This document shows positions 31,787 through 32,952 of a stretch of 36,686 bases of DNA, in pieces. Under the pieces are notes generated by a model. That model had not been told where the DNA came from and searched no databases. It saw only the letters and a program-made list of their open reading frames with translations. How positions within the stretch are numbered: position 1 is the stretch's first letter; every line of letters begins with the position of its first letter. Source of the stretch: a virus; the IMG/VR virus record IMGVR_UViG_3300020455_000042, positions 1-36,686 of that record. One strand, written 5' to 3'. A program made the position numbers and the translations under genes.

Positions 31787-32031
31787 ATAAAAGATTTAAA
31801 CCAATGAGTTCAGATATAAACGATAGAGCAGGTTTGTATGTTGAAGTAAGAAACAATGACGTTACTCGTGCATTGCGAAAACTAAAAAAATTAATGAACA
31901 GCGAAGGCATGATTAAAGACATGCGTAAGAACGAATTCTACGAAAAGCCTAGTGCAGTAAAACGCAGAGAGAAAGCTCAAGCTAGAAAACGTTGGCTAAA
32001 GTTACAAGAAAAAAATAAAGATAATTTGTAA
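31783..32031 (+). CDS. rpsU: ribosomal protein bS21
   Basis: 82 residues. After a 16-residue lead (MNKRFKPMSSDINDRA) comes the bS21 core: LYVEVRNNDVTRALRKLKKL, then IKDMRKNEFYEKPSAVKRRE and a basic helix ending KRWLKLQEKNK. REFYEKP is the family hallmark. In bacteria bS21 sits on the 30S platform by the anti-Shine-Dalgarno end of 16S rRNA and helps mRNA selection. Its ATG overlaps the IF-3 stop (ATGA), with GAGG just upstream, so the two products are made together. bS21 has been reported in pelagiphages and other phages; IF-3 beside it is less familiar to me. Confidence 0.93.
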   Translation: MNKRFKPMSSDINDRAGLYVEVRNNDVTRALRKLKKLMNSEGMIKDMRKNEFYEKPSAVKRREKAQARKRWLKLQEKNKDNL

Positions 32032-32038
32032 AAAAAGG

Positions 32039-32067
32039 TTGACTTCGCAAACAACTTATACTATATT
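32039..32067 (+). promoter_or_regulatory. sigma70-type promoter TTGACT-N17-TATATT
   Basis: -35 TTGACT at 32039-32044, starting 7 nt after the bS21 stop, 17-bp spacer, -10 TATATT at 32062-32067. Predicted start near 32074. It directs transcription into the structured region that has no ORF of note. Confidence 0.8.
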
Positions 32068-32073
32068 AGTTAT

Positions 32074-32450
32074 TAATAAGGCGACGGTCTTGTTGGAGTA
32101 GTGCAAGGAAATGTGTCTGACCAAGAGGCATAACTTGATTGCTTAGGCGTGGTAGCCAGGTTCGAAGTCTAGCGACCGAGAATCACATCGTCCTCCCGGA
32201 CGGAAGTAAGTGCTAGGGGATTTTGAGAATGGTATCTCGGTCGACCTAGTTGGAGGTGAAACCCAAGTCCTCCCTACTCACTATAACTTGACAGTAATAA
32301 GATTACAGTCAGACAGATGCGATAAGAGATAAGGTGTCTAGAGATAAGAATACACATAAGTACAAACAACCCGATAAGATACTTGGGAAACGATATATAA
32401 GAATAGGGTAGCTACTTAATAAGCTCGTTAGGGACCACGGTTAGTCCCTA
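32074..32450 (+). ncRNA. structured non-coding RNA of unknown class (about 380 nt)
   Basis: No convincing ORF exists between bS21 and Hsp20 (32032-32520), and the segment is far less A+T-rich than neighbours between 32080 and 32280. Helices by eye: 9-bp CGACCGAGA (32173-32181) with TCTCGGTCG (32235-32243); CGTCC/GGACG hairpin (32189-32202) inside it; long-range GAGTAG (32096-32101) with CTACTC (32274-32279); TTGG/CCAA or competing GGAGG/CCTCC near 32250-32273; TGACAGTAAT/ATTACAGTCA (32289-32311, one mismatch); TAGGGAC/GTCCCTA (32429-32450). GGTTCGAAGTC at 32159-32169 resembles a tRNA T-arm. It has its own sigma70-type promoter. Both ends are estimates. Confidence 0.7.
32321..32378 (+). repeat. 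four GATAAG repeats inside the ncRNA
   Basis: GATAAG occurs at 32321-32326, 32328-32333, 32343-32348 and 32373-32378. The array lies in the A-rich, apparently less structured part of the RNA, as expected for a protein- or RNA-binding stretch. Confidence 0.55.
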
Positions 32451-32458
32451 GATAAATA
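32451..32458 (+). promoter_or_regulatory. late promoter word GATAAATA upstream of hsp20
   Basis: 7 of 8 match immediately after the last hairpin of the ncRNA, 62 nt before ATG 32521. Confidence 0.5.
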
Positions 32459-32463
32459 AAAGT

Positions 32464-32520
32464 GTAGATGCCAAATATGGGTCTACTTACATTAATCTTG
32501 CTTAATAAAGGAGATAGCAA
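32464..32520 (+). promoter_or_regulatory. two hairpins in the hsp20 leader
   Basis: First hairpin: GTAGA (32464-32468) with TCTAC (32482-32486), extended by CCA/TGG inside. Second: TTGCT (32498-32502) with AGCAA (32516-32520), a 13-nt loop that displays AAGGAG, the hsp20 Shine-Dalgarno sequence. Either could tune translation of the heat-shock gene. Confidence 0.4.
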
Positions 32521-32952
32521 ATGAATAGATTAACAACCCTCGACATTAATAAATTAACCCCCTATGCAGTAGGATTCGATAGAGTATTTGACGACATGTT
32601 TAGATATATCGAACACAATACTAATAGCACGGGTTATCCTCCCTACAACATTATCAGAGATGGTGAAAAGTTTCAAATCGAAATTGCACTAGCAGGTGTA
32701 GACAAAAAAGATTTGGAAATCACAGTTGCTGATGGTGTGCTTACCATTGCACACAACCCAGAAGGTGAAGTAGAAACCGGAAAATGGGATTGGATTCACA
32801 AAGGTATTGCACAGAGAAGCTTCAAGCGAAACTTCACACTAAGTGATGATATTGTAGTGCAAGGTTCTAGAATGGAAAATGGTATGCTTTATATTGAACT
32901 AGAGCGAATCATTCCAGAGGAAAAGAAACCTAAAACAATCGCTATCAAATAA
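32521..32952 (+). CDS. small heat-shock protein Hsp20 (alpha-crystallin family)
   Basis: 143 residues with the alpha-crystallin domain: YNIIRDGEKFQIEIALAGVD (strands 2-3), KKDLEITVADGVLTIAHNPE (strands 4-5), RSFKRNFTLSDDI (strand 6 region) and NGMLYIELERIIPEEKKPKTI, holding the G-x-L motif and the I-x-I-type tail. It is an ATP-independent chaperone that keeps unfolding proteins soluble, as in many marine T4-like phages. AAAGGAG lies before ATG 32521. It is followed by a strong terminator. Confidence 0.93.
   Translation: MNRLTTLDINKLTPYAVGFDRVFDDMFRYIEHNTNSTGYPPYNIIRDGEKFQIEIALAGVDKKDLEITVADGVLTIAHNPEGEVETGKWDWIHKGIAQRSFKRNFTLSDDIVVQGSRMENGMLYIELERIIPEEKKPKTIAIK

Follow-up and report, generated by a model that had tools for sequence, protein, structure and literature searches.

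Genomic setting and composition of the interval

The interval at positions 32032–32520 raises the question of whether it encodes a single structured RNA of an unknown class, as claimed by a sequence-only reading, or several separate elements. The window, i.e., the whole stretch of DNA that was analysed, is the IMG/VR virus record IMGVR_UViG_3300020455_000042 with a length of 36,686 bases. On the plus strand, the interval is preceded by the genes of IF-3 (PF00707/PF05198) and S21 (PF01165) and followed by those of Hsp20 (PF00011), ClpS (PF02617) and an IMPDH/GMP-reductase-like protein. NrdA, with phage homologues, and NrdB are encoded elsewhere in the window. Based on the IF-3/S21/Hsp20/ClpS neighbourhood and the presence of NrdA and NrdB, the window appears to be part of the genome of a marine myophage of the T4-like type.

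The Rfam 15 scan was performed with fast filters on the whole window and with lax filters on positions 32000–32560. The fast scan returned no matches, and the lax scan returned two clear ones, manA (RF01745) and ROSE_3 (RF02523). Together with the comparison of relatives, i.e., IMG/VR loci fetched via Hsp20, the results showed that the interval is a compound region upstream of the phage hsp20 gene, comprising two promoters and three RNA elements, each conserved on its own. Its five parts are a sigma70-like promoter, a manA-motif RNA, a 49-nt RNA, a T4-type late-promoter motif and a ROSE-like thermometer (Table 1), and we regard this reading of the region as a whole as likely. Newness is confined to the 49-nt RNA, and the manA and ROSE-like parts belong to known kinds.

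The promoter and the absence of ORFs described by the sequence-only reading were both confirmed, as TTGACT-17-TATATT was found at the start of the interval (Table 1) and no ORF of at least 50 aa starts between the S21 stop (32031) and hsp20 (32521). The claim of a folded RNA holds as far as structure is concerned, with covariation and with z-scores against shuffled sequences of −2.34 (32075–32280) and −1.85 (32075–32520), but the fold is that of three elements with two promoters and not of a single RNA. Likewise, the term unknown class applies to the 49-nt part, which had not been singled out, but not to the ~207 nt of manA and the ~65 nt of the ROSE-like element.

Table 1. Features identified in and next to the interval upstream of hsp20 (positions in the window).
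Feature	Position	Strand	Basis or remark
sigma70-like promoter TTGACT-N17-TATATT, presumed early	32039–32067	+	10/12 consensus matches
manA-motif RNA (RF01745), about 207 nt	32077–32283	+	cmscan, full length, model 1–192/192
Linker with three GATAAGA repeats	32284–32403	+	comparison of relatives
49-nt RNA, two hairpins, pseudoknot at the first	32404–32452	+	covariance model R1 built here, 67.9 bits
Pseudoknot pairs A32405-T32416 and G32406-C32415 of the 49-nt RNA	32405–32416	+	covariation
T4-type late-promoter motif ATAAATA	32452–32458	+	expected start ~32465
ROSE-like RNA thermometer, ~65 nt	32462–32526	+	RF02523, 35.3 bits, E 1.3e-5
hsp20 (alpha-crystallin small heat-shock protein), gene 3' of the interval	32521–32952	+	PF00011, E 5e-17

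The manA-motif RNA

The manA-motif RNA starts ~10 nt downstream of the sigma70-like promoter, which relatives both with and without manA also have in front of the module. The match (58.9 bits, E 1.6e-14, cmscan with lax filters) exceeds the curated gathering score of 55.2 bits and includes the proposed manA pseudoknot (32097–32101 with 32274–32278), and by sequence comparison, positions 32077–32283 are assigned to RF01745. The scores of manA in IMG/VR relatives ranged from 28.5 to 75.6 bits. When the Rfam structure was mapped on eight relatives, 402 of the 438 cells were paired, and the conserved helices are kept by compensatory change, with changes on both sides in 32114–32130, 32142–32206, 32148–32155, 32192–32199 and others. 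The fast first look at the window's own record missed manA, so manA negatives obtained with fast filters are not evidence of absence.

Weinberg et al. (2010, PMC2864571) described the manA motif as a riboswitch candidate that occurs in marine bacteria and in T4-like cyanophages and lies in what may be the 5' UTRs of mannose/fructose, nucleotide, ibpA and photosynthesis genes; it has also been annotated in cyanophage S-CREM1 (PMC9964418). No ligand was found in the papers searched, and the element described here is a further member of this known, still orphan, class of riboswitch candidates. It shares with the published representatives (PMC2864571) the full-length match above the cut-off, a marine T4-like phage as carrier and an ibpA-type chaperone gene nearby. 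Unlike them, it is not cyanobacterial, and ~240 nt, including a conserved RNA and the late promoter, separate it from the start of hsp20, the gene downstream. Neither a terminator nor an SD-masking element was found just 3' of manA in the window. The manA element is presumed to be a metabolite-sensing cis-regulator. Because of ACGGAAGTAAG in the window, a glutamine riboswitch was also considered, and it was rejected, as it was unmatched in the lax-filter scan of 32000–32560. In Pelagibacter phage Mosig (L201, 2844–3051), manA (64.0 bits) is located directly before a rubrerythrin gene, which is absent from the gene classes listed in the 2010 paper (PMC2864571). As for the linker that follows manA, GATAAGA also occurs at the corresponding place in several relatives without manA.

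According to an earlier proposal, the whole interval is one unknown RNA, for instance a two-piece tmRNA, a permuted tRNA or a regulator of the 6S kind. The T-arm-like string GGTTCGAAGTC is indeed present, but it lies inside a manA stem-loop, which does not support a tRNA reading. The long, 9-bp helix also exists (32174–32181 with 32235–32242, 53 nt apart) but is not conserved and was rejected as a defining helix: only three of eight pairs are formed in the relative L001, and no compensatory pairs were detected. The manA helices that compete with it are present in all eight relatives or maintained by compensatory change, and the manA hairpin 32225–32228/32235–32238, which the 9-bp helix would break, is invariant. 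The covariation check on relatives spoke for the manA helices, the 49-nt RNA and hairpin I of the ROSE-like element and against the 9-bp helix. ARAGORN found no gene in the window, and no match to tmRNA (RF01849/RF04321/RF00023), 6S or RNase P was obtained up to E = 10 in 32000–32560. Moreover, the interval contains a late promoter and separately mobile parts. Because these parts occur separately in relatives, the view of the interval as one RNA is mainly refuted, and we consider it highly improbable.

The ROSE-like element upstream of hsp20

The element preceding hsp20 has the anatomy of a ROSE-like thermometer. Hairpin I is formed by GTAGATGCC..GGGTCTAC and shows compensatory changes across phages. 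In the 3' hairpin, ATCTTGCTT pairs with the Shine-Dalgarno (SD) sequence AAGGAGAT and leaves a bulged G, so that the U(U/C)GCU of the sequence just upstream of hsp20 (ATCTTGCTTAATAAAGGAGAT) folds against the SD site. The scores are below the Rfam gathering scores (35.3 vs. 43 bits for RF02523 and 21.8 vs. 45 bits for RF00435), and therefore the element is called ROSE-like and is not filed as a member of either family.

In the short ROSE-like element of Pseudomonas ibpA, the 3' hairpin holds the SD in an imperfect pairing with U(U/C)GCU (PMC3669281). The phage element shares with known ROSE-like thermometers (RF02523/RF00435; the Pseudomonas ibpA short form, PMC3669281) the two hairpins, the length of ~60 nt, the U(U/C)GCU–SD pairing, the bulged G and the small heat-shock gene downstream. 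It differs from them in that it precedes a phage gene, lies below the Rfam cut-off and is expected to be transcribed from a T4-type late promoter. Among the non-cyanobacterial phage hsp20 leaders that were read and have the element, nearly all show the U(U/C)GCU anti-SD hairpin with the bulged G, and in three cyanophages the leader has the CTCGCTT (UCGCU) form. In cultured T4-like phages (L203–L210 and L212: cyanophages, pelagiphages and Melnitz), the hsp20 SD is likewise preceded by U(U/C)GCU or a close variant, and phage-encoded ROSE-like thermometers may be general.

According to computed folding of the leader up to the ATG, the SD would be hidden by the element, with an unpaired probability of 0.15 at 10 °C that rises to 0.64 by 45 °C. 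When 20 nt of the hsp20 coding sequence were included, a rival pairing won and the SD was mostly free at all temperatures. Heat control is a plausible function, and both this rival pairing and the score below the gathering threshold make thermometer action less than certain.

In L005, L009, L019, L021, L063 and their relatives (~2791–2989), an ORF of ~65 aa encoding a phasin-like protein lies between the 49-nt RNA/late promoter and hsp20, and in these loci the ROSE-like element before hsp20 is missing.

Structure and covariation of the 49-nt RNA

In the aligned relatives, a conserved block corresponding to 32404–32452 lies between manA and the late promoter, and it is also present in relatives without manA. 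In the window, where the covariance model R1 found a single copy, the RNA reads A-GGGT-AGCT-A-C-T-TAATA-AGCT-CG-T-TAGGGAC-CACGGTTA-GTCCCTA. A DNA pattern built from its loops, X-GGGT-(4-bp stem)-N-C-Z-TAATA-(stem)-CG-N-(7-bp stem)-CAYGGTTA-(stem), matched at least 120 IMG/VR stretches, and 106 of the 120 distinct matches, among the matches listed, have the structure.

In 74 non-redundant copies, 96.4% of the cells pair, compared with 65.8% after shuffling and 31–51% with slid partners, the stems and the pseudoknot being left free by the search pattern except for a filter of three out of four pairs in the first stem. The same set contains 303 double-change cells (79 after shuffling), and 12 of the 13 pairs have changes on both sides. 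Positions X and Z, which flank the 5' strand of the first stem, form a standard pair in 69 of the 74 sequences (AU 34, CG 21, GC 11 and UA 3), and this covariation indicates a pseudoknot. The secondary structure is thereby strongly supported. The loops CNUAAUA and CAYGGUUA are near-invariant, partly by construction, as they are fixed in the search pattern.

Neither the copy from the window, 13 relatives, nor the best-scoring copy searched with the laxest filters gave a credible match among the 4227 families of Rfam 15. The literature search, whose coverage excluded subscription journals and preprints, yielded no description of this RNA.

Distribution of the 49-nt RNA

The covariance model R1 found exactly one copy in 47 of 54 phage contigs of up to 203 kb, some of which may be incomplete, and none in the other seven; locus L193 has two copies. 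The genes adjoining the RNA vary and include S21, gp32-like, outer-membrane-like and clamp loader genes, among others. An action together with the neighbouring IF-3 and S21, as had been suggested from the sequence, found no direct support; in relatives, the RNA lies beside many other genes.

When one genome for each of 84,980 species of bacteria and archaea was scanned with the exact pattern, the single match was located in a metagenome-assembled contig. Because of this single match, the RNA looks phage-specific, and an origin from a host gene was rejected on the same grounds.

As to cultured phages, blastn with two copies gave no real match, and only the covariance model identified a copy in Methylophilales phage Melnitz (46560–46607, 39.8 bits, E 8.8e-10). 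It is located 124 nt after a two-piece tmRNA, which is adjoined by a glutamine riboswitch, and it overlaps a small hypothetical CDS on the reverse strand. The tmRNA and the riboswitch were reported in the paper on Melnitz (PMC9004378), the text of which has no mention of a hairpin, noncoding RNA, small RNA or pseudoknot. The model detected no copy in Mosig, HTVC008M, C48C1, HTVC103P and four cyanophages.

Possible role of the 49-nt RNA

The reading we favour, and consider rather probable, is that the 49-nt RNA represents a class of its own among small phage RNAs and works in trans, possibly at the ribosome or in ribosome rescue. It comprises a PK1-like pseudoknot and a hairpin with a conserved loop, and genomes of marine T4-like phages usually have a single copy, in some cases placed in a tRNA operon or provided with a separate promoter and terminator. 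That the RNA is a distinct molecule acting in trans is probable because it is found at other places in relatives, mostly as the only copy in a genome, and because it sometimes has its own promoter and a terminator-like U-tract or lies between tRNAs. In L083, L164, L179 and L196, a sigma70-like promoter was found with the −35 box 40–45 nt upstream of the RNA, and L083 and L164 are read as complete small-RNA genes of ~60 nt because they have both a promoter of their own and a terminal U-tract. Of the 75 copies, 12 have a tRNA at a distance of no more than 60 nt, always on the same strand (random positions: 4.7%). Stable small RNAs are known from phage tRNA clusters, e.g., RNAs C and D of T4. By description only, the 49-nt RNA resembles them as a small structured RNA that in some relatives occurs in a phage tRNA operon, and differs from them in that a genome usually has one copy, which in many cases is not part of a tRNA cluster. 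Just upstream of the RNA in L083 and L196, an operator-like inverted repeat GTATCAAC...GTTGATAC surrounds the promoter −10 box.

The main rival is a role only in cis at RNA 3' ends, as an unusual transcription terminator or a hairpin for 3'-end processing or stabilisation. As a rule, the gene upstream has the same orientation and stops 5–25 nt before the RNA, 17 copies lie between convergently arranged ORFs, and a U-tract follows the second stem in 21 of the 75 copies, all of which would suit such an element; a cis role is also conceivable since the RNA is partly used here as an hsp20 leader or intergenic element. However, most copies are without the U-tract, several are located 2–12 nt from tRNAs inside tRNA operons, and a terminator would not need the near-invariant loops. 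A general terminator was rejected on copy number, as it would recur within contigs of this size. We consider an exclusive cis role unlikely.

Somewhat less probable still is that the RNA derives from or mimics tmRNA, i.e., that it is a free PK1-like pseudoknot that might bind ribosomes, S1 or SmpB and tune trans-translation. Its pseudoknot half resembles PK1 of the two-piece tmRNAs of related phages, which is an indirect echo of the tmRNA proposed for this interval. The scheme is the same and the letters are nearly so: the motif GGGT-(4 bp)-NCZ-TAATA can be compared with CGGA-TGAC-TGCG-TAATA-GGTCA in the L129 tmRNA and GGGT-TGAC-TGCC-TAATA-GGTCA in PK1 of the Melnitz tmRNA. With PK1 of the alphaproteobacterial two-piece tmRNA (RF01849/RF04321), the 5' half shares the H-type pseudoknot, the order of stems and the TAAT(A/T) third loop. 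The 49-nt RNA differs from it in being stand-alone, in a loop that is one nt shorter and in a second hairpin with the loop CAYGGUUA, which has no tmRNA counterpart, and it has neither a tag frame nor a tRNA-like end. A tmRNA occurs within 1 kb in 11 of the 75 copies, compared with 5.5% for random positions, but there is none near most copies, and small H-type pseudoknots can look alike by convergence. The associations with tRNA, tmRNA and the U-tract each concern a minority of copies. For the favoured trans-acting RNA, the PK1-like scheme and the tRNA and tmRNA neighbourhoods are a lead pointing to the translation apparatus. In L111, a weak match to hammerhead type III (2527–2569; 30.8 bits, cut-off 48.5) sits between a permuted tmRNA and the 49-nt RNA.

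The 49-nt RNA shows very strong covariation and is absent from Rfam, and a phage genome usually keeps a single copy of it, in changing gene surroundings. The cultured carrier Melnitz makes work on its transcript, partner and knockout feasible. If it acts on ribosomes or trans-translation, marine T4-like phages would steer host translation by an RNA and not by a protein.

Proposed working of the region

Early in infection, the host sigma70 RNA polymerase would start at ~32075 and produce a transcript beginning with the manA-motif domain, the presumed metabolite-sensing cis-regulator. The same early transcript would carry the 49-nt RNA, made together with manA, and this RNA would probably act in trans after being set free or retained as a small RNA in its own right. 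Late in infection, the T4-type late promoter at 32452, the motif of which is kept adjoining the module in relatives, would give a shorter hsp20 mRNA; judging from the position of the motif, a start ~7 nt downstream of ATAAATA would leave the ROSE-like element alone as the leader. Its anti-SD strand would then keep the ribosome site covered, and warming or unfolding stress would expose it by opening the hairpin. Most of the interval is accounted for by a thermometer and an orphan riboswitch candidate that precede a phage chaperone gene. This arrangement suggests that in these phages chaperone output may be set by both a presumed metabolite signal and temperature.

All 13 ATAAATA cores present in the window are located on the plus strand. 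Several of them occur at gene ends, directly before the next gene, and they constitute a usable late-promoter map of the window.
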